Below, one piece after another: positions 22,135-50,586 of a stretch of DNA of 50,586 nt. The stretch is from contig JAHFDN010000021.1 in assembly GCA_023248995.1 (NCBI GenBank), forward strand, positions 1 through 50,586. Reading direction: 5' to 3'. This stretch comes from Candidatus Rokuibacteriota bacterium (lineage in GTDB: Bacteria; Methylomirabilota; Methylomirabilia; Rokubacteriales; CSP1-6). Position 1 is the first letter of the stretch. Each line of letters opens with the position of its first letter. Under the pieces are notes generated by a model that ran no database searches, was not told the DNA's origin, and saw nothing but the letters and a program-made list of their open reading frames with translations. The position numbers and the translations under genes were made by a program.

Positions 22135-22137
22135 GAG

Positions 22138-22211: not shown

Positions 22212-22227
22212 GGGCCGACGGGCTCAC

Positions 22228-23554: not shown

Positions 23555-24001
23555 CTCGTCCTCGGAAGCATATGCTTCCCTTAGCCGGATGCTGCCCCTA
23601 ATCGCATCAAAGTAGCCGCAAGTGTAAACGGCCGCCGCGCGAAATCTCGCGACCGATGTCCCAAGCCGGCCAGCGTAATCCGGCCGGAGCTTCGCGACGA
23701 CTGACCCAAGGAGCTCGTCCAAGTCGCCCGGATCAAGATGGTGCGCCATCCTGTTTCTCACTTCGTTCAGCCTCCCCACGAAATCCCAGGCGGGTTCGTC
23801 GTGCCGTCCTACCACAGCACGACACAAACAGAGGACTTGGTGGAACGACAGTCTCGCAGCGCGCAACTCGTCAGGCGACCGGCAGATTCCAGCCAAGACG
23901 TCACGAAGACGCTCCTCGACCAACAGGTGAGTCCTCAGAATGAGGAGCGTCGGGTCATCGGTCTTGTCGAGGTGCCGACCGATTTGTTCCAGAGGGTCCA
24001 C
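23549..24001 (-). CDS. HEPN-like cassette protein
   Basis: 150 residues, all-helical. It carries 'LNEVRNRMAHHLD', an RN-x3-H match to the RX4-6H motif of HEPN RNases, after a helical 'HLLVEERLRDVLAGICRSPDELRAARLSFHQVLCLCRAVVG' region. HEPN proteins are often RNase toxins or parts of defence systems; no partner is seen. It is the first gene of the cassette array on the minus strand and begins near the lone GTTAGAT core at 24018. Confidence 0.7.
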   Translation of the reverse strand: MDPLEQIGRHLDKTDDPTLLILRTHLLVEERLRDVLAGICRSPDELRAARLSFHQVLCLCRAVVGRHDEPAWDFVGRLNEVRNRMAHHLDPGDLDELLGSVVAKLRPDYAGRLGTSVARFRAAAVYTCGYFDAIRGSIRLREAYASEDEV

Positions 24002-35540: not shown

Positions 35541-36014
35541 ATGAAGCGTCGCATCGGGTTTCTCTTGATCGTATCGCTGATCGTGCTCGGGATGGCCCCG
35601 ACGGCGTTCGCGGGGCCGAAAGAGGAGGTTGCCGCCGCGACGGCGAAGTGGGCAGAGCTCTTCACCTCAGACAATCCCGACCCGATCCTCGCCCTCTATG
35701 CCAAGGATGGCATCCTCTGGGGAACGCTGTCCCCGGCTCGGCGGGATGATCCCGCGGCGATTCGCGATTATTTCGTGAAGGCGTTCGCGGCCCTGCCCGG
35801 CCATAAGGTCGCGTTCGGGGACCAGCGCATACGCGTCTACGGCAATACGGCCATCAACACCGGCTATTACACCTTTTCGTTCATGAAGGACGGCCAGGCC
35901 AAGACTCTCCCCGCACGATACAGTTTCACCTACGTGAAGCAAGGCGGGAAGTGGTTGATCGCGGATCACCACTCGTCGGCAATGCCCGCGCCACCCCCAG
36001 CACCCCCCAAGTAG
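35541..36014 (+). CDS. Secreted NTF2/SnoaL-like (SgcJ/EcaC family) protein
   Basis: 157 residues. Signal peptide 'MKRRIGFLLIVSLIVLGMAPTAFAG', then an NTF2-like domain: 'AATAKWAELFTSDNPDPILALYAKDGILWGTLSPARR..AIRDYFVKAF' and 'YVKQGGKWLIADHHSSAMP'. The two upstream GGAGGAC copies (35500s) form a small tandem repeat including the Shine-Dalgarno. Role in the periplasm unknown; strong promoter and terminator frame it as its own unit. Confidence 0.88.
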   Translation: MKRRIGFLLIVSLIVLGMAPTAFAGPKEEVAAATAKWAELFTSDNPDPILALYAKDGILWGTLSPARRDDPAAIRDYFVKAFAALPGHKVAFGDQRIRVYGNTAINTGYYTFSFMKDGQAKTLPARYSFTYVKQGGKWLIADHHSSAMPAPPPAPPK

Positions 36015-36067: not shown

Positions 36068-37198
36068 TCAGGATCCCGCCCGGTCAGGCACGGTTTCGGC
36101 GGGAGCCGGCAACGCGCCGCCCCGAGCGCTTTCCCAGATGGCCTCCGCCTCGGCCTCGAGCAGCGCGCGGCAGACCCCACGCGTCGGGCCCTGGGCGAGC
36201 ACCGTGCAGATCGGATGCCCCTGGACAATGACCTCTCCCCGGTGGGGCACGTCGCGCACGCCCCGCGTGAGCCACGCGAGCGTATCGCCCACCGATACCG
36301 TCGAGCGCGCGTACACGATCGCTTTCCCCCAGGAGCCGCCGCCCGCCTTCACCTCCGTGGGAAGCGCGCCTCGGAGGGCGGCGAGGTGCATGCCAAAGAC
36401 CGAGACGCCGGCGGCCCGATCGACCAGCTCCATGGACGCGCAGTAGCGGGGGTTCACCTCCACGACCACGGGTCGGCCGTGGCGCAGCACGAAGTCGAAC
36501 CCGTTGAGGCCGCGCAATTCGAACTCAGCCGTGACCGCCTCGGCGATGGCGGAGACCTCGTCCAGGGCCGCCCGAGGCGCGTCGAGCGGGAGAAGGTTGC
36601 CGCCGTAGGCAAAGCCCGTCGGCCCCGGGAGCTGCTCCGTCCATCCGAGGAGGACACTCTGTCGCCCGTCGGCCACGAACACCGCCGAGGCCGGAACGCC
36701 CTCGAGATACTCCTCCAGGATCACCCCCGCCCGGAGAGGCTGACCATCCCAGAAGCCAATTCCCCTCCCGCCTCCCCCGCGGATGGGCTTCACCAGCCAC
36801 CGGCCGCCTCGCGGCAGGGGCGCACCGACCCCCACGGTACGCGGCACCGCAAATCCCCGAGAGGAGAGAAACGGGAAGAGCACGTCCGGGTTACGCACTC
36901 GGCGAAGGGTCTCAGGCCCGTTGCCCAGGAGAGTCCTCCCCGCGGCGAGCGCGGCGATCAGCTCCGGTTCGTTCTCCAGACCGCCGCAGTACGCCACCGC
37001 GTCGTACCGGAGCTCCCCCGCCACCGCCAGAAACGCCACGGCCGAGTACCGGAGCCCGCGCTCGCGGAGCGAGACATTTTCGCACAGGCGCTTCTGGTCC
37101 AGATCGCCGAACAGGTCGATCGTGACGATCTCGCACCCGGCACGGCGGGCGGACTCGGCGATCGCGCGGGTGGTCAGCCCCACGAGGAGGATTTTCAT
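36068..37198 (-). CDS. ATP-grasp protein of the H4MPT island
   Basis: 376 residues. ATP-grasp pattern with 'RWLVKPIRGGGGRGIGFWDG' and 'LEEYLEGVPASAVFVADGR' (ATP and Mg sites) and 'VVVEVNPRYCASMEL'. Its N-terminus has 'KILLVGLTTRAIAESARRAGCEIVTIDLFGDLDQK'. Orthologues are commonly clustered with H4MPT genes; the ligase reaction is unknown. Overlaps the DUF1464 gene by 4 bp (ATGA), so they are co-translated. Confidence 0.82.
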   Translation of the reverse strand: MKILLVGLTTRAIAESARRAGCEIVTIDLFGDLDQKRLCENVSLRERGLRYSAVAFLAVAGELRYDAVAYCGGLENEPELIAALAAGRTLLGNGPETLRRVRNPDVLFPFLSSRGFAVPRTVGVGAPLPRGGRWLVKPIRGGGGRGIGFWDGQPLRAGVILEEYLEGVPASAVFVADGRQSVLLGWTEQLPGPTGFAYGGNLLPLDAPRAALDEVSAIAEAVTAEFELRGLNGFDFVLRHGRPVVVEVNPRYCASMELVDRAAGVSVFGMHLAALRGALPTEVKAGGGSWGKAIVYARSTVSVGDTLAWLTRGVRDVPHRGEVIVQGHPICTVLAQGPTRGVCRALLEAEAEAIWESARGGALPAPAETVPDRAGS

Positions 37199-38289
37199 CG
37201 CATCCCGAATTGACCGCGCACCGCGTCGCTGCCGGCCACATACAGGTGATCCAGCACGGTGCCGCGCGAGTCTCGGAGAGCCATAGTCTCCACCAGAGCG
37301 CGGTTCGAGCCGCCCGCGAGCCCGTCGGCAATCAGGGCCGCCCCTTGGGCCGCTTCCTTAGAGCTCGATGCGAACCCGGTCACGGGATGCACCGGCGCCA
37401 CGCGTTTCAGCCGGGTGGCCAGCGCCGCGGCGATGGCCGGAACGCGGCTCAGGCGGCCCGACAGCAACACCTCCCTCGGGGCGGGGAGGCTGATCCGCAA
37501 CGCCGCGACCATTTTTTCGGTCGATTCGAGGAGCGCGTCCCACGCGATTCTTACGCGCGGATCCTCCCCCGCGCGTTCTGCGAAGGATTCGGGAGACAAT
37601 TCCGGATCCCCGGCGATGAACACGGCGCCGCCGGTAAACAGCGCCGATTTCGAGACGCGCCCCAGCGAGTAGGCCACCTCCCCGTCCAGCGCGCCCAGGG
37701 CTCGGTAGCCGAGCCCGCCGCTGCTCCCCCCGATGCCGTCCACAATCCGCCCGCCATCCACCGCGAGCGCGGCCGTGAATGCACCCCCGAGCTCGACCAG
37801 GATAAAACTCGTCCGCTCGGGGGGCAGACCGAGGCGGCCGGCCTGATCCCAGATGGCCAGGGCAGCGACGCAGAGCTTGTCCGCCGTCCCCATGTCAATC
37901 CGGCTCACCTTCCGGTGCGCCGGAACGGTCCCGAGGTGAATGACGCCGGGGAGGATCACGGCGGGGAGCTGGCGCCGACGCATCAGCTCCACCATCTCCC
38001 GGAGTCCCCCGACCATCTCCGGCTGACTCCGGTCGTCTTCCCGCACGAGGATGAAGAGGTTGAGCTGATCATCAGTTATCTGGGCCACCGGGATGAGCGG
38101 GAGGCCATAGCCCGAGGGGGCGGCCACGAGGTCGAGGGGGAGCGCGCGCGTCAGGTGATCGACGATGAGGGAAGGGGTGCGGGCTGCGTCCTCGGTCGAG
38201 ATCGAGAGCTCGAGGAACACGCGGCCGTCTTCCAGGCCGCAGAGACCAAAACTCAGGGTGCCGGGATCGACGCCGATGACGCGCGGCAC
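37195..38289 (-). CDS. DUF1464 family kinase-like protein
   Basis: 364 residues with actin/hexokinase-like features: 'VIGVDPGTLSFGLCGLEDG' (phosphate-1-type loop), 'FILVELGGAFTAALAVDGGRIVDGIGGSSGG' and a C-terminal 'VLLSGRLSRVPAIAAAL'. DUF1464 proteins are conserved with H4MPT genes in archaea and bacteria. Kinase activity is inferred only from the fold. Tightly packed between the ATP-grasp gene and mtdB. Confidence 0.85.
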   Translation of the reverse strand: MPRVIGVDPGTLSFGLCGLEDGRVFLELSISTEDAARTPSLIVDHLTRALPLDLVAAPSGYGLPLIPVAQITDDQLNLFILVREDDRSQPEMVGGLREMVELMRRRQLPAVILPGVIHLGTVPAHRKVSRIDMGTADKLCVAALAIWDQAGRLGLPPERTSFILVELGGAFTAALAVDGGRIVDGIGGSSGGLGYRALGALDGEVAYSLGRVSKSALFTGGAVFIAGDPELSPESFAERAGEDPRVRIAWDALLESTEKMVAALRISLPAPREVLLSGRLSRVPAIAAALATRLKRVAPVHPVTGFASSSKEAAQGAALIADGLAGGSNRALVETMALRDSRGTVLDHLYVAGSDAVRGQFGMR

Positions 38290-38291
38290 AG

Positions 38292-39146
38292 CTAGATTGA
38301 CCGCGCGATCTGATAGATCCCGCCCACGTCCAGGACCTCATCGTTCCGCTCGAAGAGCCGCGCCACGCAGGTCTTGTGGACCTTCATCTTCAGGCCGCCG
38401 ACCCCGAGAGCGCCGAAGACACGCTTGCCCTCGCGCTCGGCTCCCTTGTCAGCCGCCTCGACGCCCTCGATGCCGAGCGGCGGCACCGCGTTCACGTCGG
38501 CCAGCGCCCTGAGGGTCGGATGCGCGGCCCACACCGAGCGGCGCAAGAGCGTCGTGCCGGCAGCCCCGGCCGTCAGGCACGCCCCGGCGCCGGTGAGCGC
38601 CGCGGCGACACCCGCGTCGTCCCGCGCCTCGGCCGCCTCGACCTCAACCCCGAAACGCGCTTTCAGCTGGTCCCCGGCGGCGCGCGCCCGGTCCAAGGAC
38701 CGAGAGGTGAGGGTGACCGAGGCGCCCTCGCGAGCCAACAGCACGGCGGCCCGGACCCCCACAGGGCCGGTTCCCGCCAGGATGACCACCCGTTGCCCCT
38801 TCAGATCCATCGTTGTCGCCAAGCGCGCCACGGCAGCGGCCGCGGTTGTGTTGCAGCCGTTGGAATCCATCATGAGGCTGACCCGGAACGGTCCAAAAAA
38901 CGCTTTCTTGGCCGCCTCCAACAGCGCGTCACCGGCGGCCACGTCGCTGCCACCGATCCAGATCGCCGTGTGACGCAGGTCCCCCGGCCCTCGCGTGAAG
39001 ATCGCGCCATGGACCAGCGGCGCCACGTCCCCCGGCACGACGCCCCCGTAACTCAGCACCTCGTCCGCGCCGGCGTCATGCGCCACGATCCGGTCGAACG
39101 CGCTCGGGTGTCTGTCGGAGTCCAGCTGCAAGAGCACTTTCTTCAT
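38292..39146 (-). CDS. mtdB: NAD(P)-dependent methylene-H4MPT dehydrogenase MtdB
   Basis: 284 residues from ATG 39146, preceded by GGAGG; an ATG at 39170 lacks a close signal. 'MKKVLLQLDSDRHPSAFDRIVAHDAGADEVLSYGGV' and the dinucleotide-binding 'LKGQRVVILAGTGPVGVRAAVLLAREGASVTLTSR' fit MtdB. It oxidises methylene-H4MPT to methenyl-H4MPT, the step before Mch (partial at the window end). 20 bp downstream of the DHPS-like gene. Confidence 0.92.
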   Translation of the reverse strand: MKKVLLQLDSDRHPSAFDRIVAHDAGADEVLSYGGVVPGDVAPLVHGAIFTRGPGDLRHTAIWIGGSDVAAGDALLEAAKKAFFGPFRVSLMMDSNGCNTTAAAAVARLATTMDLKGQRVVILAGTGPVGVRAAVLLAREGASVTLTSRSLDRARAAGDQLKARFGVEVEAAEARDDAGVAAALTGAGACLTAGAAGTTLLRRSVWAAHPTLRALADVNAVPPLGIEGVEAADKGAEREGKRVFGALGVGGLKMKVHKTCVARLFERNDEVLDVGGIYQIARSI

Positions 39147-39166
39147 CGTGGCCTCCACCGGCACAT

Positions 39167-40549
39167 TCATTTCCGTCTGGCGCGCCGCGTCCCCTCGAGC
39201 CTCACGCGGCCGTGGCGCGACTCCTCCTTCTCGGGTGTCATGTATCCCCAGCGCAACGGTTGCTCCTGGACGTAGGTCTTTCCCAGCAGGAGCGCCAGCT
39301 TGGCCTTCATCAGCTCCTTCCCGAGGTAGAACGCGTGTGACGGCTCCTTGACCTCCAGTTGCTCGAAGAGCGCTTGAATGTCCGTACCGCTGACGAACAG
39401 GCGGTTGTTGAACACGCAGATCGCATCCTGGGTCGTGGAGATGCGGAAGTTCGGGTCGGTGATCGCCGACTGGAGTGCCCGCAACTCGGCCTCCGTCGAA
39501 TACTTCGGACGGGCGTCCTTCACCGTGAGCAGCCGGCTGTCGATGAATTTGGGCACCACCCCGCGCTGCTGGGCGGCACGCATCAGGCGGCGCGCCACAT
39601 CCACTTCGCGCACCGCGCCGCGCGCCCACTCGATCACTTCAGTGGTCAGGACGTGGCGGATTCCCAGCTCCTGGCAGAAGCCGATCAGCAGCGCGTTGAC
39701 GCCGGTGGTGTCGGCGTCGGTCAACTCGGTGATGTTGCCGATACCCATCAGCATCTCAGCAGTCGGGTATTTCGCCCTCACCTGGACATAGCGGTCGAGA
39801 CTCGCCGCGAAGCCCACCGTGATCGGCTCGATGATCGGATCGACGATGTACGGCCGCCCGATCCGCTCGAGGTACGCGATGTTGCGGTCGAGTATGTCGA
39901 GGCCCTGCCCGAGGTCAGGGATGACGACGACGGCACAGTGCAGGGCCTGGGCGATCTCCAGGTTCTCGGCGTTGAGGCTCAGCACGTAGTCCACGCCGGC
40001 CCGGTCAGCGGCCAGGATCTCGGTCTTGTCGAACGTGTCGATGCTGACGACGAAACCTCGCGCCTTGAGCAGTCCGATCACCTCGGCCGCATCCTCGAAC
40101 TTCCGATCGAGCGAACAGCCCAGGTCCACGACGTCCGCCCCACTCTCGCGGAAGTATTCAGCCCAGCGCACGACTTCCTCGCGCGACATGTAGGGGACGT
40201 TGTTGATCTCGGCGAAGATCCGGATGTCGTACTGGCCGTACTCCTCCCGCAGGGCTGCCTGGCCGAAGTATTCCGGTAGTTCGCGCAGGTCGGCCGGCCC
40301 TTTTTCCGCCCTTGCGCCGAAGCGCTCTTCAATAACGCGTACGTCTCCTTCGCACAGCCCCGGAATCAGGATACGGTCGAACCCCTCCGTTGATGCCAGG
40401 TGCTTCGAAATCCAGGACGTAGTCATCAACGCCGCAACGGAGATGCGCAGAACGACGACCTCGTACTGGAAGTCCGGCGCCATGGCCTCGAGCGTCGCCC
40501 TGAGCGCCGGCGCGGCCAGTTTGCCCGTGACGAAGAGGATCTTGGACAA
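39167..40549 (-). CDS. Dihydropteroate-synthase-like protein (DUF6513-type)
   Basis: 460 residues. N-terminal module 'KILFVTGKLAAPALRATLEAMAPDFQYEVVVLRISVAALMTTSWI', then a pterin-binding barrel: 'RIFAEINNVPYMS', 'GADVVDLGCSLDRKFED', 'VSIDTFDKTEILAADRAGVDYVLSLNAEN', 'YIVDPIIEPITVGFAASLDRY'. Longer than folate DHPS (about 280). In an H4MPT island it may join the pterin pyrophosphate to the ribofuranosyl-aminobenzene unit, as the archaeal DHPS homologue does. Reaction not proven. Confidence 0.88.
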   Translation of the reverse strand: MSKILFVTGKLAAPALRATLEAMAPDFQYEVVVLRISVAALMTTSWISKHLASTEGFDRILIPGLCEGDVRVIEERFGARAEKGPADLRELPEYFGQAALREEYGQYDIRIFAEINNVPYMSREEVVRWAEYFRESGADVVDLGCSLDRKFEDAAEVIGLLKARGFVVSIDTFDKTEILAADRAGVDYVLSLNAENLEIAQALHCAVVVIPDLGQGLDILDRNIAYLERIGRPYIVDPIIEPITVGFAASLDRYVQVRAKYPTAEMLMGIGNITELTDADTTGVNALLIGFCQELGIRHVLTTEVIEWARGAVREVDVARRLMRAAQQRGVVPKFIDSRLLTVKDARPKYSTEAELRALQSAITDPNFRISTTQDAICVFNNRLFVSGTDIQALFEQLEVKEPSHAFYLGKELMKAKLALLLGKTYVQEQPLRWGYMTPEKEESRHGRVRLEGTRRARRK

Positions 40550-40563
40550 CGTCCGCGAGAACT

Positions 40564-40941
40564 TCAGGCCGCCTTGTCAGGGCTGCCGCTGCGCACCCAT
40601 TTGTTCGGCGTGCCTTCCATCGGTGAGCCGGCTTTCGGTCTCCAGAGCACCGTTTCCTCGATCCTCTTGGCAACCGCGAAATCGCGCTCAGTGATCCCGT
40701 CGGAAGCATGGGTGCGGAGTTTCACCCACAGTTTACCCCACGTCACCTCGAGATCGGGATGATGCCAGGCGGCCTCGGCGACAAACCCGATGGTGTTCAC
40801 CAGCGCCAAGGTGGTGAGCCATCCGTCAGTGTTGTATTTGCGGCGAATCCAACGACCCTCGTGCCACCAGTCCGGGAGCTCCTCCTTCAGCCGTTTCGTG
40901 ACGACATCTTCGGGCAGAACGGGTAACTTTTCCTCGGGCAT
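40564..40941 (-). CDS. Pterin-4a-carbinolamine dehydratase-like protein
   Basis: 125 residues with the PhhB/DCoH core 'AEAAWHHPDLEVTWGKLWVKLRTHASDGITERDFAVAKRIE', including the His-His-Pro and Thr-His active-site residues. Known members dehydrate 4a-hydroxy-tetrahydropterin. An unlinked phenylalanine hydroxylase is not visible, so a role in H4MPT pterin handling is likely. It lies 14 bp upstream of the DHPS-like gene. Confidence 0.9.
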   Translation of the reverse strand: MPEEKLPVLPEDVVTKRLKEELPDWWHEGRWIRRKYNTDGWLTTLALVNTIGFVAEAAWHHPDLEVTWGKLWVKLRTHASDGITERDFAVAKRIEETVLWRPKAGSPMEGTPNKWVRSGSPDKAA

Positions 40942-40990
40942 ATCGGCCTCCCTCCAAGCGCCCCGTCACCGGGGCGGGCAAATTGCTCCC

Positions 40991-41749
40991 CTAGGCCATG
41001 ACGACCCCGCCACCGACGAGGATTGTCTGGCCAGTGATGAACGACGACTCCGGAGAGGCCAGGAACAGCACCGCCGACGCCACGTCTTCGGGAAGTCCCC
41101 AGCGCCCCAGCGGGGTTTGTCGGAGGACCGAGGCGGCTCTCGCCTCGTCGAGCTGCTCGGCCCACCTGGTCTTGATCCACCCGGGGGCCACGACGTTCAC
41201 CCGCACTCGGGGTGCCAGCTCGCGGGCCAAGCACCGGCTCATCGCCACGACTCCTCCTTTCGCCGCAGCATAAATCGCCGCGGTCGGGTTGCCCATCCCG
41301 TGGAAGACGTGGTCCCACGCCATGTTCACGATCACTCCCTCGCCGCGCCTCATCATCACCAGGGCGGCCGCGCGCGAGCAGAGCCAGGTCCCCTTGAGGT
41401 CCACCGTCATCACCCGATCCCACTTCGCCTCGTCGGGCCACGTGGCCGCATCGCCCGTCAAGACGTCGGCGCCCGCATTGTTGACCCAGGCGTCGATCTT
41501 GCCAAACGACGCCAGGGCAGTCCCGACAAGCCGCTCCACGTCCGCCGTCCGAGACACGTCGGCCTGCGCCAGAATCGCTCGCCGCCCCAGGCGGGCGATC
41601 TCGGCAGCGACCGATTCCGCCTCGGCCTCGGAGCGCACATAGTTCACGACGACGTCAGCGCCCTCGCGGGCGAGAGTCAGCGCCGTCGCCCGTCCGATCC
41701 CGGTGCTCGCTCCGGTGATGACCGCAACTCGGTCATCCAGCTTTCCCAC
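40991..41749 (-). CDS. Short-chain dehydrogenase resembling pteridine reductases
   Basis: 252 residues: 'AVITGASTGIGRATAL' cofactor loop, 'NNAGADV' (90-96), Tyr160 and Lys164 in 'YAAAKGG'. The canonical Ser 13 residues before Tyr is absent: W145-D146-H147 occur instead ('NMAWDHVFHG'). Pteridine reductases (PTR1, FolM) also replace Ser by Asp, though here Asp is one residue off. In this island it may reduce dihydromethanopterin to H4MPT. Upstream of the PCD gene by 50 bp. Confidence 0.8.
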   Translation of the reverse strand: MGKLDDRVAVITGASTGIGRATALTLAREGADVVVNYVRSEAEAESVAAEIARLGRRAILAQADVSRTADVERLVGTALASFGKIDAWVNNAGADVLTGDAATWPDEAKWDRVMTVDLKGTWLCSRAAALVMMRRGEGVIVNMAWDHVFHGMGNPTAAIYAAAKGGVVAMSRCLARELAPRVRVNVVAPGWIKTRWAEQLDEARAASVLRQTPLGRWGLPEDVASAVLFLASPESSFITGQTILVGGGVVMA

Positions 41750-41814
41750 GTTCCCTCCTGCCAGCGACCAGTCTGAACTTGTAGCGCCCGATAGACCCTA
41801 CTATAATCCAAGTC

Positions 41815-42588
41815 GTGCGCCTTCTGGTCAGCGTCGTGGACGCAGCCGAGGCCGTCGAAGCGGCTCTAGCGGGTGCCCGCATCATTGATGTGAAGGACCC
41901 GGTGACCGGGGCACTCGGCGCCGCCACGCCGAGCTCCGTGCGCGAAGTTCGGGACGCGATACCTCCGGGACTCCCGGTCAGCGCCGCCATTGGCGACGGC
42001 CCGTTCGAGCCGAGGTGGGCGACGCGCGCCGCGCGCGCCGCCGCCGAATGTGGCGCGGAGTTCGTGAAGCTCGGTCTTCGCGGTACCTCGGCCGACCACG
42101 CCTTCCAAACGATCCGCGCCGTGCGCGCCGGCCTGCCGCGACAGGTTCGCTTGATCGTCGCCGCCTTTGCGGACTTCCGTCGCGCCGGGTCGCCCCATCC
42201 CCTCGACGTCCCTCGCCTGACCCAGGCTGCCGGCGCCCAGGGCTGCCTGATCGACACGGCGATCAAGGACGGCTTGGGACTGTTCCACTGGCTGGACGAC
42301 GTGGCCCTCCAGGCGTTCGTTGCCGCCTGTCGGGCGCGCGGGCTGCTCTCTGCTCTCGCGGGGTCGCTCGCGCCGACGGACCTCCCGCGCCTGGTCCCGA
42401 TCGGGCCGCACATCATCGGGGTGCGCGGCGCGGCCTGTGAGGGCGACCGCGTCCATGGCCGGGTGACCCGGCAGCGCGTCGGGGCGCTCGCCCTCGCGCT
42501 GGGCGACGGAGCGACGACACCACTTCCGTTCCGTACGTGCGTCCCGTCTCGATCAGCTCCGCAACGCGTTCCGGGCGGGTTCCGTTGA
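41815..42588 (+). CDS. mfnB: (5-formylfuran-3-yl)methyl phosphate synthase MfnB
   Basis: 257 residues from GTG 41815. The TIM-barrel shows 'MRLLVSVVDAAEAVEAALAGARIIDVKDP' with Lys27 and 'GAEFVKLGLRG' with Lys85, the same numbers as the catalytic Lys residues of archaeal MfnB. Makes the furan precursor of methanofuran from glyceraldehyde 3-phosphate. The C-terminal 30 residues are likely read-through, overlapping the antisense MfnE-like gene. Confidence 0.92.
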   Translation: MRLLVSVVDAAEAVEAALAGARIIDVKDPVTGALGAATPSSVREVRDAIPPGLPVSAAIGDGPFEPRWATRAARAAAECGAEFVKLGLRGTSADHAFQTIRAVRAGLPRQVRLIVAAFADFRRAGSPHPLDVPRLTQAAGAQGCLIDTAIKDGLGLFHWLDDVALQAFVAACRARGLLSALAGSLAPTDLPRLVPIGPHIIGVRGAACEGDRVHGRVTRQRVGALALALGDGATTPLPFRTCVPSRSAPQRVPGGFR

Positions 42589-43210
42589 CGATCCAGCAGG
42601 GCATCGCCGAGTCAAGCACCCGAGCGAAGTGGGGATCCACGACGCCGTCCAATCCCTCGAGGACAATCCGCCCCCGGAGTCGTGCCCCCCTCCCCTGCTT
42701 GGGGTTCCGATCGAAGAGGCCGTCCACGTCCTTCACGAGCACCAGCATTTTCGCGCGCAGCTGACGCGCCACCCACGCGGCGATCGAGTCCGAAGTCACC
42801 TGCCACGAATGCGGCAGCGGATCGGCGCGGCCCAGCCACGCGGAAAGCGCGAGGACATTCAGCCGGCCCGCCGCGATGGCCTCCCGCCCGCGGAGCACCA
42901 CCGCGTCGCCGGCCAGGCGCGCCAGCACGTGGGCGTACTGGTCCATCGCCAGGATGGCCATCCAGTGAGCCGGCGAGTCGCCGAGGGCGAAGCGTCGGTC
43001 CGCGCGACGCACCTCCTCGGCGAAGCCTCCTCCCCCGGGCACCACCACAAGCGTGCGGGCGCGCGCCAGCTTCGCGAGCACCGACATCAGCCGCCGGAGC
43101 GCCCGAGGCCGACGGCTCAGACTTCCTCCCACCTTGAGGACGACCCTAGTGCCGGCCCAACTGACTTCGCCATACCGCGTTCTCGGTCGTCGCCGGTCCT
43201 CAACGTACAA
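42413..43210 (-). CDS. MfnE-like amino-acid-kinase-family protein
   Basis: About 265 residues from TTG 43210 (GGAGG about 9 bp upstream); the frame continues to 43321. Kinase fold: 'RVVLKVGGSLSRRP' , 'LVVVPGGGGFAEEVR', 'KMLVLVKDVDGLFDRNPKQG' and 'GTRPERVAELIETGRTYGTEV'. MfnE phosphorylates the furan unit of methanofuran in archaea. The chosen start is inside the dispersed repeat copy B, so the native N-terminus is uncertain. Its 3' end overlaps mfnB convergently by 176 bp. Confidence 0.82.
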   Translation of the reverse strand: MYVEDRRRPRTRYGEVSWAGTRVVLKVGGSLSRRPRALRRLMSVLAKLARARTLVVVPGGGGFAEEVRRADRRFALGDSPAHWMAILAMDQYAHVLARLAGDAVVLRGREAIAAGRLNVLALSAWLGRADPLPHSWQVTSDSIAAWVARQLRAKMLVLVKDVDGLFDRNPKQGRGARLRGRIVLEGLDGVVDPHFARVLDSAMPCWIVNGTRPERVAELIETGRTYGTEVVSSLRRPARGRAPRRAAGSPGHGRGRPHRPRRAPR

Positions 43211-43274
43211 CCGCGTACGCCTCCGGCCGGCTCCTCCCTCGGGCCTTGTCTTGCTCGTCACTTGTCCCGGCACC
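43165..43274 (+). repeat. Dispersed repeat copy B
   Basis: Aligned to 10814-10925 (minus strand) over about 110 bp with few gaps, in inverted relation to it. It covers the likely start region of the MfnE-like gene on the minus strand. Confidence 0.75.
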
Positions 43275-43325
43275 TTGATGCGCGCGTGATTACTTGTCAG
43301 TGTGGGCACGACGTCCGGCACCGGC

Positions 43326-44339
43326 TCACCCTCGTTCGGCGAGGAGCCACGCCACCGCGACGGCCGGCGCGGCGGTGCTGACGTCCACCCCGAGAAGGCT
43401 CGACAATTCGATCGACCCGAGCCCGCACTGTGCCGCCGCCCGGTGGCCCAGGAAAGCGCCCTGCCCCGTCACGATGATGTCCACGGGACGCTCAAAGGGC
43501 GCAGCGACACGGGACAGCGCCGACGCGATCTGGCGGGTTTGCGCGTGGGCCACGGCAGCCGCGATCCCGACGATCTCCTCGTGCGCCAGCATCTCGACGT
43601 CGGCGCACACGACGCGCGCCAGCCTCTCGGCAGCGAAGCTCGGCGTGGCCGGGCGGCCGTCGGGCGTGGGGCAGGTGTAGTCATCCGGACTGAGGCTTCC
43701 AAGGAGGAGATGCACGTCGCCGCTGACCGCGAAGGCCTCGGCGGCAACCGGACACTCGCGACCCCGGAGCGGCACGCTAGGGACGATCGCGGCGACGGTC
43801 GTGCGGAGCGTCCCGCTATAGACGAGCTCGCCGGCGAGCAAGCGCTCCGGGTCGGTCCGGCCCTCTGCGACGACTCGGCCGGCGCGGATCGGAATGATGT
43901 CGCTGGTCGTGCTCCCCACGTCCAGCAGGATCGCATCCGCCGCATGGCGGGCAACCAGCATGGCCGTCGCCATCCAGTTCGAGGCGGCGACCTCAAGGGG
44001 ACGCTCACACGCCGCCCTCGCGGCCAGAAAGTCCCCGCCGGTGGTGAAGACCGAGAGCGGCCGCGGCGACACCGCGCCGAGCGCCTCCAACACGAACGCC
44101 ACGCCCTCACGCTTGGTGCGAAAGGCGTCCGACAGCTCCGCCGTCATCGTGACGGCGATCGCGTCCGCCAGAGGCAGGTCGGCGGCCAGCCCGCGCAGCG
44201 CGTCGGGCAACCGTTCCTTGTCCCGCCAGATCTCGAACGGGCGACTGGCCGTGCGCACCGACCGCACGTGCCCGTCCACGGTCAGGTGCGCCGCTTTGAC
44301 GTTGGCCCCTCCGACGTCCCACCCCAGCACACGGATCAC
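43326..44339 (-). CDS. Hydantoinase/oxoprolinase-type H4MPT-cluster protein (MfnF-like)
   Basis: 337 residues. 'VLGWDVGGANVKAAHL' (ATP-fold P-loop), 'AVTMTAELSDAFRTKREGV', 'ILLDVGSTTSDIIPIRAGRVV' and 'IIVTGQGAFLGHRAAAQCGL'. This group is associated with H4MPT-linked C1 transfer and includes archaeal MfnF, which joins the furan and the glutamyl-tyramine. ATGA overlap with the ATP-grasp gene and 5 bp or more before the MfnE-like gene. Confidence 0.88.
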   Translation of the reverse strand: MIRVLGWDVGGANVKAAHLTVDGHVRSVRTASRPFEIWRDKERLPDALRGLAADLPLADAIAVTMTAELSDAFRTKREGVAFVLEALGAVSPRPLSVFTTGGDFLAARAACERPLEVAASNWMATAMLVARHAADAILLDVGSTTSDIIPIRAGRVVAEGRTDPERLLAGELVYSGTLRTTVAAIVPSVPLRGRECPVAAEAFAVSGDVHLLLGSLSPDDYTCPTPDGRPATPSFAAERLARVVCADVEMLAHEEIVGIAAAVAHAQTRQIASALSRVAAPFERPVDIIVTGQGAFLGHRAAAQCGLGSIELSSLLGVDVSTAAPAVAVAWLLAERG

Positions 44340-45367
44340 GCCGCGACCCCGTGGAGCGGCTCCACTCGCACCTCACCGCCCGCCGTAAACCAGGCCCGCG
44401 CCACCACCGGCATGCTGCCCGGCACCTCGCCCCGCGCGACACGGAGGAGAATAGCCGCCAGATTGACGCCGAGCGCGCGCCGGAGCCCGGTATAGGACGT
44501 GGTCAGGCGCGGGTTGATCTCCATGACGACCGCATCCGCGCCGAGCACGAGGTCCACCCCCACGTAGCCGGAGAGTCCGGGCGTGAGGCCACACGCCGTG
44601 GCCGCCACTGCCAGCGCGCGCGCGCCCAACGGGTGTTCCAGGGGAATAACCCCACCGCGATATTCGAAGCGCGCGCCCTCCGCGATCTCTTGCCCGTTCA
44701 GGCTGATGGGGCGGGCCCCTCGCCCGTCGCAGAGCATCGAGACACTGGCATGCCGGCCCTGAATGTAGGGTTGCGCGATCAGGGGGGAGCCGCTTGCCTC
44801 CTGTGTCGCCTCCCGCCAAGCTTCTGCGAGGCCGGCCAGCTCCCCGACTCGACGGAGGCCCACGCAGCCCGCTCCGTCGCGCGGCTTGAGAACCAGCGGG
44901 AACCCGAGCGAGACCGCCGCGGCCGGCGTCGGCGCCTCCAGCGTGGGCGGGACAGGCACCCCGGCTCCTGCCAAGCGCGCGATGGTCCGGAGCTTGTCGG
45001 CGGCCATCCGAACCCCGTCGCTCCGCGATCCGAGATGGAGGACGCCCGCCCGCTCGACCCGCTCGACGAGTCCGGCCAGCAGCCCGCCCTGCTCCGGGGC
45101 GATGACGAGCGCGGCGTCGCACGTGGCCAGGCAGCGGTCGAAGGTATCGTCGAAACCTCCCGGTTGAACCGTGTGGATGTGGCGCGCCTGGAGCTCCCCC
45201 GGGAGCCGGGGATCGCGGGTCGTGATAACATCGCCCCCGTCGAGCGCGGCGAAATCGGCCACGGCCGCGCGCAGCATCGCCGCCGCCTCCAGGAACATGG
45301 CCGGAGGGAGGGGTTGGCCCGCCAGCCCTCCGCCGGAGACGTACTCAGCGATGAACATCCGCATCAT
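44336..45367 (-). CDS. ATP-grasp ligase of the methanofuran group (MfnD-like)
   Basis: 343 residues from the ATG run at 45358-45367; 'MFIAEYVSGGGLAGQPLP', 'LVIAPEQGGLLAGLVERVERAG', 'FPLVLKPRDGAGCVGLRRV', 'YIQGRHASVSML' and 'VMEINPRLTTSYTGLRRAL' typify the small ATP-grasp proteins with MfnD (tyramine/tyrosine-glutamate ligase). Likely adds glutamate to the amine of the cofactor. Start overlaps the divergent HisA-like start, sharing a 17 bp intergenic/coding region. Confidence 0.83.
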   Translation of the reverse strand: MMRMFIAEYVSGGGLAGQPLPPAMFLEAAAMLRAAVADFAALDGGDVITTRDPRLPGELQARHIHTVQPGGFDDTFDRCLATCDAALVIAPEQGGLLAGLVERVERAGVLHLGSRSDGVRMAADKLRTIARLAGAGVPVPPTLEAPTPAAAVSLGFPLVLKPRDGAGCVGLRRVGELAGLAEAWREATQEASGSPLIAQPYIQGRHASVSMLCDGRGARPISLNGQEIAEGARFEYRGGVIPLEHPLGARALAVAATACGLTPGLSGYVGVDLVLGADAVVMEINPRLTTSYTGLRRALGVNLAAILLRVARGEVPGSMPVVARAWFTAGGEVRVEPLHGVAA

Positions 45368-46106
45368 TCCGGTGCTGGACCTCAAAGATGGCGTGGCAGT
45401 GCACGCCGTGCGCGGTCAGCGGGACGCCTACGCCCCGGTGCGAAGCGTGCTCGCGGCCTCGGCCGATCCGGTCGCGCTGGCCCGTGCCTTCATGGAACGA
45501 CTGGGCCTCCAGGAGTGCTACGTGGCCGACCTGGACGCCATCGCCGGACGCGGGGACCACGGCCCGACGATCCGCGCCATCGCACAACTCGGTTTGGCAG
45601 TGTGGCTGGATGCCGGGGTCTCGACCGTGTCGGATGCCGAGCGCGCGGTCGGCCAGGGTGCTGCCCGCGTGATCATCGGGACCGAGACCCTCGGCGACCC
45701 GCGCGATCTGCCCGGCATCGCGGCGGCCACCCGGGGCGCGGCGACACGGCCGGCGCCGTGCTCTGCCCTCAGCCTCGACCTGCGGGAGGGCCGGCTCCTC
45801 GGCGGCTCCCCTGCCGTCGAACGGCTCGACCCCTTGGACGTGGCCGACCGCGCATGGGCGGCCGGAATCCGGACGTTCATCGTCCTCGACTTGGCCCGGG
45901 TCGGCCACGGGCACGGCGTGGACACGTCCGTGGCCGTCCGGCTGCGGCAGGCCTTCCCCGGTGCAGAGATCATCGTCGGCGGGGGCACGCGCGACGTCGA
46001 AGACCTGCGCCGGCTGGCGCGCCAGGGTTTCGACGGCGCGCTCGTCGCCACCGCGCTGCACACCGGGGCGATCACGTCGGGAGCCGTCGAGGCGGGGACC
46101 CCGTGA
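45351..46106 (+). CDS. HisA/HisF-related protein
   Basis: 251 residues, TIM barrel: 'IIPVLDLKDGVAVHAVRGQRDAY', 'VADLDAIAGRGDHG', 'LSLDLREGRLLGG' and 'IIVGGGTRDVEDLRRLARQGFDGALVATALHTG'. Related to HisA but this lineage is linked with H4MPT/methanofuran genes in archaea and methylotrophs, function unknown. The 3' end overlaps the PabBC gene by 35 bp convergently. Confidence 0.85.
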   Translation: MNIRIIPVLDLKDGVAVHAVRGQRDAYAPVRSVLAASADPVALARAFMERLGLQECYVADLDAIAGRGDHGPTIRAIAQLGLAVWLDAGVSTVSDAERAVGQGAARVIIGTETLGDPRDLPGIAAATRGAATRPAPCSALSLDLREGRLLGGSPAVERLDPLDVADRAWAAGIRTFIVLDLARVGHGHGVDTSVAVRLRQAFPGAEIIVGGGTRDVEDLRRLARQGFDGALVATALHTGAITSGAVEAGTP

Positions 46107-48015
46107 AGCCAGCATCAAGCGGCGGGACGAGGGCGGTGCCGGCGTCGGACTCGGCACCGAGTCCCAGATACTGCTCGCAGAATCCCACTTCGCGTAGCCC
46201 CCTGATCGCGTTACAGATATAGATCGCGTCGGCGTGCCGGAGATCGTCCAGCCACAAGACTCCCTCACGCGCCCCTGCTTCGGTCTCGAGCAGGTGTTGC
46301 CGGTAGACCCCGTTGAGCAGCCCGCAGGTCACCGGGGGCGTGACGAGGGCCGCCCCCTTTCGGATGAAGATGTTGCTGATCGCCCCTTCCGTGACCTGGC
46401 CGTCCTCGTTCATAAAGATCACGTCGGCGAAGCCTCTTTCCGCGGCGAGGCGATACATCCGATCGTACACCGCTCGCCGCGTCGTTTTGTGATAGAGGAA
46501 CGGATCCGTGGCGTCGCTTCTGCGGCCCGACAGGGCGACGCGGGCAGCGGCCACCTCGCTCCCCTCCTCGAGGACCGAGCTCTCCAGCGCGATGCCCCCG
46601 TGGCGGTCCAGCGTCAACCGCACCTTGTATCTTTTCCCCGCTGGGAACCGTTCGCCCTCCGCCATGAGACTCGCGACCACACGATCAACATCCGAGGGAT
46701 AGTCGAAGTACCTCGCCGACTCGATGAGCCGTCTCATATGCCGGGTCAACAGGGGATATCCGTCGTCCCAGAGGATCGTCTCGACCAGCTTGAACTCCTC
46801 GTGCACGCTCGCCACAAAAGCCGCCTTCAGTTGACACTCTTCGTACTCGTCCCCTGGATTCGAATCCGCCACGATGCCGCTCCCGATCCCCATCTCGCCT
46901 CTGCGGCCGTCGAGGACGAGCGTGCGGATCGCCACATTGAACACGGCCTCACCCGCGGGCGACACATAGCCGATGGCTCCCGTGTACACGCCGCGGGACT
47001 CGCCCTCCAGCTCGCGGATGATCTGCATGGATCGGATCTTGGGAGCGCCGGTCACGGAGCCAGACGGAAACAGACTGCGGAAGAGATCGTAGTAGCCCAC
47101 CCCCCGGCGGATCTTCCCCTCGACCGTCGAGGTCATCTGAAACAGCGTCTGATACTTCTCGACCGTGAAGAGCTCCCGGACTCGGACCGACCCGACCTCC
47201 GCTATCCGGCCCAGATCGTTCCGGAGCAGATCCACGATCATCACATTTTCCGCTCTGTTTTTGGGATCATTTCTCAACCATTCCTCGAGGACCAGGTCTT
47301 CCTCGCATGTGCGCCCACGCCTGACCGTGCCCTTCATCGGCTTCGTCGTGATCGTGTCGCCCGTTCGCCGCAAGAACAATTCGGGGGAGAAGGACAAGAC
47401 CGTCCGTCCGCGGGCGTTGATGAAGGCGCCGTACGATACGCGCTGCCGCTTTTTCAGGGCATGGTAGAGCGCCAGGCGAGACCCCTCACACTCGAAGAGG
47501 TACTTGCCCGTGAAGTTTATTTGATACGTAGAGCCCGCGCGGATGAGGCTCTGTATCCTGTCAAGGCTCCGGAAATACTCCTCCCTGGGAATGTTATAGC
47601 GGAGGTGATCGATCCGGTAAGCGCCGCCCGGCGGCTCACCGGCCGTCGGCGCGGACCCCCTCTCGCCGTCCGCTTCGAACGCGCCGGTGAGGTGATTGAA
47701 CACGAGCGGGGCACGGTAGATCCCAAACCACGCGAGCGGAGAGGCGTCCGGGAGACAATCGGCGATCTTCTCAAAATGATATCCGCACTCATACCCAAGG
47801 TATCCGGCGGCATACAAGCCTTGCCCGACATAGCGCTCGATGTCTGCCAACAGAGCCGGGACTTCCCCAACCGAATGTATAGAGCGCGTGTCGATCGGAT
47901 CGATAAAGAGGAAGCTCCGGTAATTGTCCAGGTCGTATCGAGAGGTTTCCAGCAACACGACATTCTCGCGACCCTCGATCAGCGCGTAGTGGGCCGGTGG
48001 GAAATCGTGAAACAT
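46072..48015 (-). CDS. Aminodeoxychorismate synthase I-lyase fusion PabB-PabC
   Basis: 647 residues. Domain 1 (about 1-370) chorismate-binding: 'FRSLDRIQSLIRAGSTYQINFTGKY', 'KPMKGTVRRGR', 'RAENVMIVDLLRNDLGR', 'GSVTGAPKIRSMQIIRELEGE..GVYTGAIGYVSP'. Domain 2 (about 390-640) class IV aminotransferase: 'VFMNEDGQVTEGAISNIFIRKG' and the PLP Lys in 'YKVRL'. Makes 4-aminobenzoate, the precursor of the aryl part of H4MPT. 18 bp after the PTPS gene. Confidence 0.93.
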   Translation of the reverse strand: MFHDFPPAHYALIEGRENVVLLETSRYDLDNYRSFLFIDPIDTRSIHSVGEVPALLADIERYVGQGLYAAGYLGYECGYHFEKIADCLPDASPLAWFGIYRAPLVFNHLTGAFEADGERGSAPTAGEPPGGAYRIDHLRYNIPREEYFRSLDRIQSLIRAGSTYQINFTGKYLFECEGSRLALYHALKKRQRVSYGAFINARGRTVLSFSPELFLRRTGDTITTKPMKGTVRRGRTCEEDLVLEEWLRNDPKNRAENVMIVDLLRNDLGRIAEVGSVRVRELFTVEKYQTLFQMTSTVEGKIRRGVGYYDLFRSLFPSGSVTGAPKIRSMQIIRELEGESRGVYTGAIGYVSPAGEAVFNVAIRTLVLDGRRGEMGIGSGIVADSNPGDEYEECQLKAAFVASVHEEFKLVETILWDDGYPLLTRHMRRLIESARYFDYPSDVDRVVASLMAEGERFPAGKRYKVRLTLDRHGGIALESSVLEEGSEVAAARVALSGRRSDATDPFLYHKTTRRAVYDRMYRLAAERGFADVIFMNEDGQVTEGAISNIFIRKGAALVTPPVTCGLLNGVYRQHLLETEAGAREGVLWLDDLRHADAIYICNAIRGLREVGFCEQYLGLGAESDAGTALVPPLDAGFTGSPPRRLPT

Positions 48016-48033
48016 ATCGTCGTTCCGACCTCG

Positions 48034-48519
48034 CTAGAGGTCCTCGCGGTACAACGCGCGCTGCCCGAAGGACTCCTCGACCTCCACCTGGATCGCCGTC
48101 AGGCCAGTCAGCCCCGTCTCACCCAGCGCCTCGCGGAGCTGTCCGGCAATCCAGCGCGCCAGCATCTCCGCCGTGGTGTTCGGGATCGGCAGCAGGACCA
48201 CGTCGCTCCGTGGAAACACGTATCGCTTGTCTTTATAGGTGGCAACGACGTGATCTCCCTCCGCTTCCACCCGGATCAGCTCGCTCCGGTCGGGGAGCAG
48301 CATCCGGTGGTCGAGCCGATCCACAATGTCCTTCAGCCGCTTCTTCAGCCGAGTGAAGTCGAAGACATAGAAATTCTCATCGAGAGATCCCTCCAGCTGC
48401 GCCGCGGCCCGGTAGTTATGACCGTGGAGCGGTTCGCATTCGTGACCGTCGTACGTGATGAAGTGGCCGGCGCAGAATACCGTGTGATCCTTCTCGACAC
48501 GAACCCCGTAAGCGCTCAT
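48034..48519 (-). CDS. 6-pyruvoyltetrahydropterin synthase family (PTPS/QueD-like)
   Basis: 161 residues. Zn ligands His19, His32 and His34; 'AGHFITYDGHECEPLHGHNY'. It has both a Cys28 (as QueD) and Glu29 (as PTPS-III) before HGH: CExxHGH. PTPS-III enzymes convert dihydroneopterin to 6-hydroxymethyl-dihydropterin, the pterin that H4MPT synthesis needs. Start overlaps the CitG-like gene by 4 bp. Confidence 0.9.
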   Translation of the reverse strand: MSAYGVRVEKDHTVFCAGHFITYDGHECEPLHGHNYRAAAQLEGSLDENFYVFDFTRLKKRLKDIVDRLDHRMLLPDRSELIRVEAEGDHVVATYKDKRYVFPRSDVVLLPIPNTTAEMLARWIAGQLREALGETGLTGLTAIQVEVEESFGQRALYREDL

Positions 48520-49403
48520 CCCAGCACTCCCCCCTCCGCCTCCAACAGCCCGACGAAGAGAGCGGCGGAAACGAGGTCGGCCGACGCCCCCGGGTTCAGC
48601 CGATTGCCCTCCTGCCTGAGGTCGTGATCGAGCTGACCGGCCGCCCGTCGGCCCTGCCGCGTGTAGAGTCCCCCGGTTTCCACCACCGTCCGCGCCTGAG
48701 CCGACACCGTCTCGGCAGTCGCTCGGCCAGCCTTGCGCATGATCAGCGTGTCCGGCAGACGGGCCAGGAGTTCAAGGTGGGCCTGGGCGATTGCCTCAGG
48801 CAGGGCGAGCCCTCCCTTCACCCCGGCGAGCAGCGCGGGGAGCGCGAGATCGAAGGTGATCGCGAAATCCCGGACATACTCCGACGCGATCGCGTCCCGC
48901 TGGGCGGCGAGCGCCATGGCCTGCCGGAGCGTGATCGTCGGCGGGTGCCTAACATCGGCCGCGTCGCTCCGTCCCAACCCGCCCGGGTTGGCGATCCGGA
49001 TGGCGCGATACGCCCAGCGGGCATCCCCCACGCTCAGCCCGCGCAACACCGCGGCCAACCGGCGCCTCAACCCGGCTCTCCCGGGAGACCGCCAGGCGGC
49101 GACGAGAGGCGCGAAGAGCAGCGCCACCCCCAGATGCGTGTTGGTCGCTGCCGCCCGGCGCGCGGCCGACACGGATTTCCACACCGCCCAGCCGACTCGA
49201 CCGGGTGCGGCCCGCGCGATGGCGGGACCGAGCGCTGCGGCGCTCGCCACGAAGTCCCGGAAGCCCGCGTCGGTGAAGCGGTGCTCAGGGGTCACATTGC
49301 CAACTTTCTCGGCGCTCGCCTCGAGCACGCAGGCCAGCGTCGCAGCCAGGGCGACCTGATGCCGCGAGTCGCCCGAACCTTCCTTCCGGTGGGCGAGCTT
49401 CAC
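48516..49403 (-). CDS. CitG/MdcB-like triphosphoribosyl-dephospho-CoA synthase family protein
   Basis: 295 residues, mostly helical: 'EHRFTDAGFRDFVASAAALGPAI', 'NTHLGVALLFAPLVAA', 'LNPGASADLVSAALFVGLLEAEGG'. CitG makes the prosthetic group of citrate lyase; no citrate-lyase genes are here. Homologues commonly lie in H4MPT islands, so a phosphoribosyl or nucleotide transfer in cofactor synthesis is likely. ATGA overlaps with both neighbours. Confidence 0.85.
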   Translation of the reverse strand: MKLAHRKEGSGDSRHQVALAATLACVLEASAEKVGNVTPEHRFTDAGFRDFVASAAALGPAIARAAPGRVGWAVWKSVSAARRAAATNTHLGVALLFAPLVAAWRSPGRAGLRRRLAAVLRGLSVGDARWAYRAIRIANPGGLGRSDAADVRHPPTITLRQAMALAAQRDAIASEYVRDFAITFDLALPALLAGVKGGLALPEAIAQAHLELLARLPDTLIMRKAGRATAETVSAQARTVVETGGLYTRQGRRAAGQLDHDLRQEGNRLNPGASADLVSAALFVGLLEAEGGVLG

Positions 49404-50302
49404 GGGCGAAACGCCTCCGTCCTCGCGTCCCGGCGCGCGGATTTGAGCGCGTGGTCGGCAACCACGCCGGCGATGTCTGTCTCGGTGGTCCGCTGCAAGC
49501 CCTGCCAGCCCGGGATGCCGTTGACCTCGAGCACGAACAGACGACCGTCCTCTCCTTGGAGCAGATCTACGCCGGCGTAGTCGGCTTCGAGGACGCTCGC
49601 CGCGCGCCGGCTGATCTCCGCCAGCGAAGGAGGCAAGTCAAGCCGTTCCGGCCGCGCGCCCTGGGCCAGATTCGTCTTCCATCCCGCGCTCCTGCGCGCC
49701 ATCGCGGCAACCACCTGCCCTCCGACCACAAATGCCCGGATGTCCCTTCCCCCATGGGGGATGTATTCCTGCAGGTAGAACACCGCCCGGGCCAGCTCCA
49801 AGGCCCGGAAGGTGCGGTAGGCAAGGTCGGCGTCCGTGACGCGAACGATCCCGCGCCCCTCCGCCCCGAACAGGGGCTTGATCACCACATCCCCTCCCAG
49901 CTCCTGAAACCCCGCCATCGCGTCGTCGAAGCGCTCCGAGACCAGCGTCCGGGGGGTGGGGAGGCCCGCGTCCTCGAGCAGCGCCGAGGTGAAATACTTG
50001 TCCACACTGCGTTCGATGCACCGCGGCGAGTTGATCACCGGGACCCCGAGCCGCGTCAGCCGGTGAAGGGCATCCACCCGGAAGATGACCTGCTCGAGCG
50101 ACCCGCTCGGGATCGCCCGGACGATGACCGCGCCGCAGTCGTCGAGGTCCTGGCCAAGGACCGCGAGCCGGGGCGCGTCGCTCACGCGTGCCGTGAGCCC
50201 CGTCACCGGGACGAGGATCGGGGTGGCCCCGCGGACAAGCAACGCCCTCTCCAGCTGAGCTTCGTGCCAGCCCCCGCGCGAGCCCAGAATGGCGATCTTC
50301 AT
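49400..50302 (-). CDS. RimK-family alpha-L-glutamate ligase (MptN-like)
   Basis: 300 residues. ATP-grasp: 'VDKYFTSALLEDAGLPTPRTL', 'GGDVVIKPLFGAEGRGIVRV', 'LQEYIPHGGRDIRAFVVGG', 'LFVLEVNGIPGWQGLQRTTE'. MptN adds glutamate to the H4MPT side chain; the position next to mch favours this. Starts ATG 50302 overlapping the mch stop (ATGA). Confidence 0.88.
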   Translation of the reverse strand: MKIAILGSRGGWHEAQLERALLVRGATPILVPVTGLTARVSDAPRLAVLGQDLDDCGAVIVRAIPSGSLEQVIFRVDALHRLTRLGVPVINSPRCIERSVDKYFTSALLEDAGLPTPRTLVSERFDDAMAGFQELGGDVVIKPLFGAEGRGIVRVTDADLAYRTFRALELARAVFYLQEYIPHGGRDIRAFVVGGQVVAAMARRSAGWKTNLAQGARPERLDLPPSLAEISRRAASVLEADYAGVDLLQGEDGRLFVLEVNGIPGWQGLQRTTETDIAGVVADHALKSARRDARTEAFRP

Positions 50303-50586
50303 CCCACTCCAAACGAGGCCCGAAGCGCGTCGGGATTCACCCGCCCCGCTCGGGAGAGGCGGCCGGTCTCGAGATTGTTGATCGTCACCTCCGCCGGGCT
50401 GAACAGCCGCCGATCAATCTTGTAGAAGTCGTGGCCGTAGCGGGCGAAGATGTCCAGGAACGGGGTGCCGTAATCGGGAGACGCCGAGGCGGGGAGCTGA
50501 TCGAGCACCGCCCCGATTTCTTCGTCGGAAGCCCGCACGGTCACGTACACGCGGGAACCATAGAGGATACAATCATTGGTCCAGCC
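50299..50586 (-). CDS. mch: Methenyl-H4MPT cyclohydrolase Mch, C-terminal part
   Basis: 96 codons to the right edge with no start: 'GWTNDCILYGSRVYVTV', then 'FLDIFARYGHDFYKIDRRLFSPAEVTINNLETGRLSRAG', the conserved Mch C-terminus. Mch hydrolyses methenyl-H4MPT to formyl-H4MPT. Cut by the window edge; the first two-thirds lie outside. Overlaps the RimK-like gene by 4 bp. Confidence 0.93.
   Translation of the reverse strand, partial: GWTNDCILYGSRVYVTVRASDEEIGAVLDQLPASASPDYGTPFLDIFARYGHDFYKIDRRLFSPAEVTINNLETGRLSRAGRVNPDALRASFGVG

Follow-up and report, generated by a model that had tools for sequence, protein, structure and literature searches.

A bacterial tetrahydromethanopterin and methylofuran gene island in a Rokubacteriales-like genome and the probable replacement of FolB by a pterin synthase

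The window studied here is a stretch of 50,586 nucleotides (bases 1-50586 of contig C55) from the genome of a bacterium of the Methylomirabilota. It is quite probable that its right-hand end holds the coenzyme-making half of a complete island for formaldehyde oxidation through tetrahydromethanopterin (H4MPT) and methylofuran, that the host oxidises methanol, and that a 6-pyruvoyltetrahydropterin synthase (PTPS) of the island takes the place of the aldolase FolB. The observations behind this reading are gene identities, gene linkage, a sequence motif, fold similarity, co-distribution and the absence of folB from a syntenic position; enzyme activity, production of H4MPT in this organism and the order of the steps are deduced.

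In the proposed route, XoxF, with pyrroloquinoline quinone (PQQ), would convert methanol to formaldehyde, Fae would couple the formaldehyde to dephospho-H4MPT, MtdB and Mch would carry the unit on to formyl-H4MPT, and the Fhc complex would release formate with the help of methylofuran. For the synthesis of the carrier, p-aminobenzoate would be supplied by PabBC and turned into ribofuranosylaminobenzene 5'-phosphate (RFA-P) by MptG, encoded on a second contig of the same genome (C10), and the dihydropteroate synthase (DHPS)-like protein would couple RFA-P to the pterin. The pterin half would come from the island PTPS (PTPS-I/III), predicted to convert dihydroneopterin triphosphate to 6-hydroxymethyl-7,8-dihydropterin in one step, and FolB would thereby be dispensable in island-bearing Methylomirabilota. 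Methylofuran would be made by MfnB, MfnE, MfnF, MfnD, Orf17, MyfA and MyfB. In proteobacterial methylotrophs, Orf22, Orf21 and Orf9 are known to be MfnB, MfnE and MfnF, Orf5 (MyfB) and OrfY (MyfA) attach glutamates to methylofuran, and the HisA-like Orf17 is essential for methylofuran in Methylorubrum for a reason that is unknown (PMC8141765). "Methylofuran", the polyglutamylated cofactor (PMC8141765), would be a better name here than "methanofuran" unless shown otherwise.

The two halves of the island

Pfam and NCBIfam profiles identify sixteen tightly packed open reading frames (ORFs), mostly on the minus strand, from position 36068 to the right end, and by its gene content the stretch 36068-50586 is a bacterial "archaeal-like" H4MPT/methylofuran cluster. 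The original prediction had placed here an integrated H4MPT and methanofuran-type C1 island, capable of methylene-to-formyl transfer, and the profiles support its genes at that place. Its gene list holds nearly gene for gene, except that only the last 95 codons of mch are present and that MyfB (Orf5) is the likelier identity of the RimK/MptN-like gene; one of its four unknowns is Orf17. The extent proposed, from 36068 onwards, stands, and the island reaches further left, to a SnoaL/DUF4440 ORF with an apparent signal peptide (35541-36014, plus strand), which is 61% identical to an ORF beside the same ATP-grasp gene in the CSP1-5-like genome G051 (locus L076).

C1 transfer is represented by the methylene-H4MPT dehydrogenase MtdB (38292-39146, minus; PF09176, Mpt_N; start set at MKKVLLQL) and by the part of mch left by the contig end (50299-50586, minus; PF02289, TIGR03120 positions 221-313). 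Genes attributed to H4MPT synthesis are the DHPS-like gene (39167-40549, minus; DUF6513/TIGR00284; 54-55% identical to those of G051 and the Methylomirabilis-like G052), a PabB-PabC fusion (46072-48015, minus; PF00425 and, for the class IV aminotransferase part, PF01063), which would provide p-aminobenzoate for RFAP synthase, and the PTPS gene (48034-48519, minus). A CitG-like protein of H4MPT islands (48516-49403, minus; PF01874) follows the RimK ligase also in the proteobacterial loci L165, L166 and L168.

The methylofuran genes mfnB, mfnE, mfnF, orf17 and myfA/B-like are all in the window. MfnB (Orf22), the (5-formylfuran-3-yl)methyl phosphate synthase, is encoded without a FolB fusion (41815-42588, plus; PF04476, 218 bits), followed by the MfnE-like kinase (Orf21; 42413-43321, minus; PF00696, NF040622), the MfnF-like protein (Orf9; 43326-44339, minus; TIGR03123, 336 bits against a cut-off of 244) and the MfnD-like ATP-grasp protein (Orf1; 44336-45364, minus; start ATG at 45364), which matches the ATP-grasp protein beside the HisA-like one in L165 and L166. 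Orf17 (PF00977, TIGR00734) lies at 45351-46106 on the plus strand, with its start at 45351. An ATP-grasp ligase in the position of OrfY/MyfA (36068-37198, minus) may add glutamate to methylofuran; it is matched best by the proteobacterial ATP-grasp ligase whose gene L165, L166 and L168 have between mtdB and mch. The MptN/RimK-like glutamate ligase taken as MyfB (49400-50302, minus) scores 263 bits with NF040720, below the cut-off of 350, and stands after mch in the islands read. The ORFs of MfnB and the MfnE-like kinase are convergent and overlap by 176 bp (42413-42588). The divergent starts of orf17 and the mfnD-like gene overlap by 14 bp (45351-45364), and their spacing is near zero elsewhere as well (about 23 bp in G051, 34 bp in Azospirillum and 12 bp in Thiodictyon); since these starts overlap or nearly touch, the promoters must lie within the opposite gene.

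The other half was found on C10, where the order is pqq genes, two PQQ alcohol dehydrogenases, fae, fwdD, fhcB, fhcA, fhcD, DUF447, mptG (RFAP synthase), fhcC, a complete mch and the first 140 codons of an MptN-like gene, after which the contig ends. It had been predicted that fae, the fhc genes and beta-RFAP synthase lay outside the window, and this is where they are located. Linkage of mch, mtdB, fhcABCD, fae and mptG is thus found, split over C55 and C10, whose ends overlap. The XoxF encoded on C10 carries the motif WDYDG. The second PQQ alcohol dehydrogenase (L002, 2283-4019) has WDYDT instead; it is encoded some 14 kb upstream of the XoxF gene that neighbours fae.

Over its final 706 bases, C10 aligns in reverse orientation with the end of the window (49881-50586). 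Because this end overlap is only 89% identical, the metagenome-assembled genome (MAG) mixes two close strains; the simplest reading is that two strains about 11% apart in DNA share one bin, that both carry the island and that the contigs abut at mch-mptN. The differences in the overlap are mostly synonymous (dN/dS 0.16), indicating purifying selection between the copies of the two strains.

Three families of the class, and Proteobacteria too, have these genes in clusters, so the island is not a chance assembly; it is real and complete, and probably functional. Orthologues, whose absence from H4MPT users was to count against the original prediction, are present in islands of the Methylomirabilis oxyfera, CSP1-5 and Proteobacteria types. 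The gene set is already known from CSP1-5, Methylomirabilis and Proteobacteria (PMC6094997, PMC8141765), and, taken as an island, it is no novelty among bacteria. With the clusters of Candidatus Methylomirabilis oxyfera and lanthanidiphila and of NC10 CSP1-5 (PMC6094997) it shares fwdD, fhcBADC, mch, MptN-like, CitG-like, DHPS-like, short-chain dehydrogenase (SDR), PTPS and Orf17 genes, with identities mostly of 36-61% (68-80% for Fae and the pterin-4a-carbinolamine dehydratase, PCD). It differs from them in that the host belongs to another order and has relatives without the island, some genes are reordered, PabB is fused to PabC, and mptG stands beside DUF447 within the fae-mch block of C10. 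The cluster of Proteobacteria (Methylorubrum orf5/9/17/21/22; Azospirillum, Phyllobacterium, Thiodictyon) has in common the block mptG-mtdB-ATP-grasp-mch-RimK-CitG-fae-HisA-like-ATP-grasp-MfnF at 22-64% identity; unlike it, the present island lacks the flavoprotein Afp and the MfnB-FolB fusion, has PTPS and SDR genes and keeps FwdD. The island of Thiodictyon also has PabB, and those of Azospirillum and Phyllobacterium have PCD; both p-aminobenzoate supply and PCD thus recur in such islands. The PCD of the window (40564-40941, minus; PF01329) is 68-74% identical to those of families f5 and f8 and about 49% to those of proteobacterial islands.

Host lineage and origin of the island

The genome holding the window has 2.34 Mb in 57 contigs and is 97% complete and 3.8% contaminated; its family relatives mostly have genomes of 3-6 Mb and belong to many genera. 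C55 encodes an IlvD 88% identical to that of the family member G015, and MqnC, MqnE and MqnD at 86-88% identity in conserved order. Synteny with G015 ends directly past MqnD, where the window carries a LysA-like gene, the SnoaL-like ORF and the island; other family members have different genes there. Given this identity and order, the island sits in a chromosome typical of the family. The host appears to be a Rokubacteriales-like member of the Methylomirabilota, Rokubacteriales being the other order of the class beside Methylomirabilales (PMC8780371). XoxF was reported in soil Rokubacteria together with none of the three formaldehyde pathways (Butterfield et al., PMC5103831); by its gene content the genome studied here departs from this pattern, having the entire H4MPT route alongside XoxF and PQQ genes.

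Among 95 genomes of the class, mch was found in 17, of which 14 belong to the Methylomirabilis-like family and two to the CSP1-5-like family, the last being the window's own; it was found in none of the 56 other family genomes and none of the three other members of the order. A tree of 13 concatenated island proteins places the window's genome as sister to the clade that unites the CSP1-5-like and Methylomirabilis-like families and separates it from Proteobacteria (100% support). The divergence of this genome or its family from Methylomirabilales was expressed relative to the split inside Methylomirabilales: five housekeeping proteins give 1.06-1.44, and most island proteins fall within 1.0-1.7, FhcB and MtdB being higher (near 2.4-2.5). 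These ratios and the island tree suit an old presence in the class. The IlvD tree, weakly supported near the tip, nests the genome within its family, and since the relatives are without the island, vertical descent implies that it was lost several times. Horizontal transfer, with a donor in another phylum or among unsampled members of the class, is possible, if somewhat doubtful, as an alternative to retention from the class ancestor, and would be compatible with the pathway proposed above. It is favoured by the isolated occurrence of the island in the order, and a source within the class would fit the data too; the grouping with Methylomirabilales in the island tree and the agreement of most ratios with those of housekeeping genes speak against it. 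A search of genome contigs with MfnF gave one Planctomycete only.

Mis-binning or a chimeric origin of C55 and C10, which would make the island foreign to the family, is improbable, though the contamination value, the island-free relatives and the two island versions in one bin might suggest it. Against this, C55 itself carries the IlvD and the ordered Mqn genes resembling those of G015, with MqnD adjoining the island side, the GC content of the island (63-73%) equals that of the remainder of the contig, and both strains carry the island. The contamination listed may be the strain mixture itself. Elsewhere in the window, the region 21005-24001 has a lower GC content (about 60-64%), contains three orphan ORFs and one ORF with a T5orf172/MUG113 domain, and looks acquired.

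The island PTPS and the absence of folB

PTPS-III is marked by ExxHGH, QueD by CxxxHGH and hybrids by CExxHGH (PMC5041015). The island PTPS has the motif HECEPLHGHNY, and CExxHGH is present in all 17 readable island copies from 16 genomes. The nearest solved sequences are the PTPSs of Plasmodium (E values of 1e-21 to 1e-22, all others 5e-10 or worse), and the predicted fold (pLDDT 86) reaches template modelling (TM) scores of 0.89-0.90 with Plasmodium PTPS, as against about 0.5 with QueD. The P. falciparum enzyme makes 6-hydroxymethyl-7,8-dihydropterin and can substitute for dihydroneopterin aldolase, and its Glu-38, which aligns with the glutamate before xxHGH, is required (PMC2229834; structures PDB 1y13 and 2a0s). 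A like bypass of the aldolase is proposed for the island enzyme, which differs from the Plasmodium one in keeping the adjacent cysteine, in its identity of 30-32% and in being encoded in an H4MPT island; its activity is predicted. Archaeal PTPS-III likewise serves H4MPT synthesis in place of FolB (PMC5041015); the island case differs in being bacterial, in the documented syntenic absence of folB and in the lack of an archaeal-type MptE (PF01973), a substitute for hydroxymethyldihydropterin pyrophosphokinase (HPPK), in the window's genome.

In 60 genomes, PTPS without FolB was found in 15, both in one (G052), neither in two and FolB only in 42 (Fisher p = 4e-11). With the window's own genome left out and completeness of at least 90%, the counts in the same order are 11, 1, 0 and 34 (p = 9e-10); relatedness among the genomes inflates both p values. 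Better evidence is given by synteny at dapL-folK. In the CSP1-5-like genus, G048, which has no island, reads dapL-folB-folK, whereas G051, which has one, reads dapL-folK and shows no remnant of folB; within the Methylomirabilis-like genus, folB stands between dapL and folK in G052 but is missing there, again with no remnant, from the island-bearing G045. In the Phyllobacterium island a fused FolB domain instead forms the C-terminus of MfnB, which indicates that the pterin side-chain step belongs in such islands. On the same plasmid (L168, 22988-24792), the gene annotated as dihydroneopterin aldolase is the MfnE-like kinase, and the FolB domain is on the adjacent MfnB; this is likely an annotation slip.

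It is improbable that the island is an ordinary one in which the PTPS, present by chance, serves queuosine synthesis (as QueD) or pterin metabolism in general. A plasmid search with the island PTPS gave weak QueD-like matches only. The retained cysteine of the hybrid motif and the Pfam/NCBIfam label of PTPS/QueD-like would fit such an enzyme; but the QueD models score below cut-off, the genome has its own QueD beside QueC with the plain CxxxHGH form (CAYLHGH), sequence and fold are closest to Plasmodium PTPS, and the presence of PTPS follows that of the island and the absence of folB.

Several points weigh against the replacement of FolB within a complete island. The QueD cysteine is kept, so a dual function is possible. 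Related genomes are not independent, and only a few contrasts, inside genera g31 and g28, are both firm and independent. PTPS and FolB occur together in G052, and the two genomes with neither are 73% and 88% complete. FolB, HPPK and the flanking DapL all went undetected in the window's genome, where the locus may be missing from the assembly; loss of FolB/FolK there was dropped as evidence because the neighbouring DapL is missing too. Finally, the order of C10 and C55 is deduced, because no single contig spans their join. Motif, fold, co-distribution and synteny taken together nevertheless point to PTPS having replaced FolB in island-bearing Methylomirabilota, as a trait specific to the class. 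No report of such a replacement in a bacterial H4MPT island was found in the open literature searched, most subscription journals being outside its scope.

Neighbouring genes and biological meaning

In the Phyllobacterium island, Afp lies beside the DHPS-like gene, and the SDR gene holds that position in Methylomirabilota (40991-41749, minus, in the window; also beside the DHPS-like gene in L076, L077 and L090). No full-length match to Afp was found in the 60 genomes, and a DmrA-type query had none in the other loci compared, the whole genome not having been searched for DmrA. Afp is missing in some accepted members of the cluster (PMC5020050) and hence does not define the family. The SDR may, as a guess, be the dihydromethanopterin reductase, although no diagnostic motif is found in it. 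Of the missing bacterial steps of H4MPT synthesis that, according to the original prediction, the layout could reveal, pterin side-chain cleavage can be given to the island PTPS, for which the comparative evidence is good, and the SDR stays such a guess. A role of the SDR as pteridine reductase found no support, its motif being TGASTGIG and not the TGxxxRxG of that family.

The DUF1464 protein (37195-38289, minus; PF07318, 305 bits) adjoins the DHPS-like gene in L077 and L090, and its predicted fold (pLDDT 38) is useless for assigning a role. Left of the SnoaL-like ORF lies a LysA-like fold-III pyridoxal phosphate-dependent decarboxylase (34041-35402, minus; Pfam Orn_Arg_deC_N, TIGR01048 below cut-off), an uncertain partner of the island that, from its adjacency, could supply tyramine for methylofuran. 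It was rejected as a canonical LysA, with only 30-34% identity to the LysA of dap operons. Another non-canonical LysA-like decarboxylase lies by fae in G051 (L075, 6511-7842) and is 30% identical to it. It is rather unlikely that the islands of Methylomirabilota form a distinct class in which three steps are carried out by unrelated enzymes (PTPS-III for FolB/MptD in both folate and H4MPT synthesis, the SDR for dihydromethanopterin reductase and the LysA-like protein for MfnA) and in which retention of the chromosomal folB depends on whether the island is gained or lost.

What looks new is a complete H4MPT island in a Rokubacteriales-like family and the exchange of FolB for PTPS in such an island. 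A formaldehyde-oxidation route would thus be complete in a lineage whose XoxF-rich soil relatives reportedly had none (PMC5103831), and a bacterial enzyme may now be named for the pterin side-chain step of H4MPT synthesis. The natural contrast between genomes with the island and PTPS but without folB and those with folB but without the island makes the idea directly testable.

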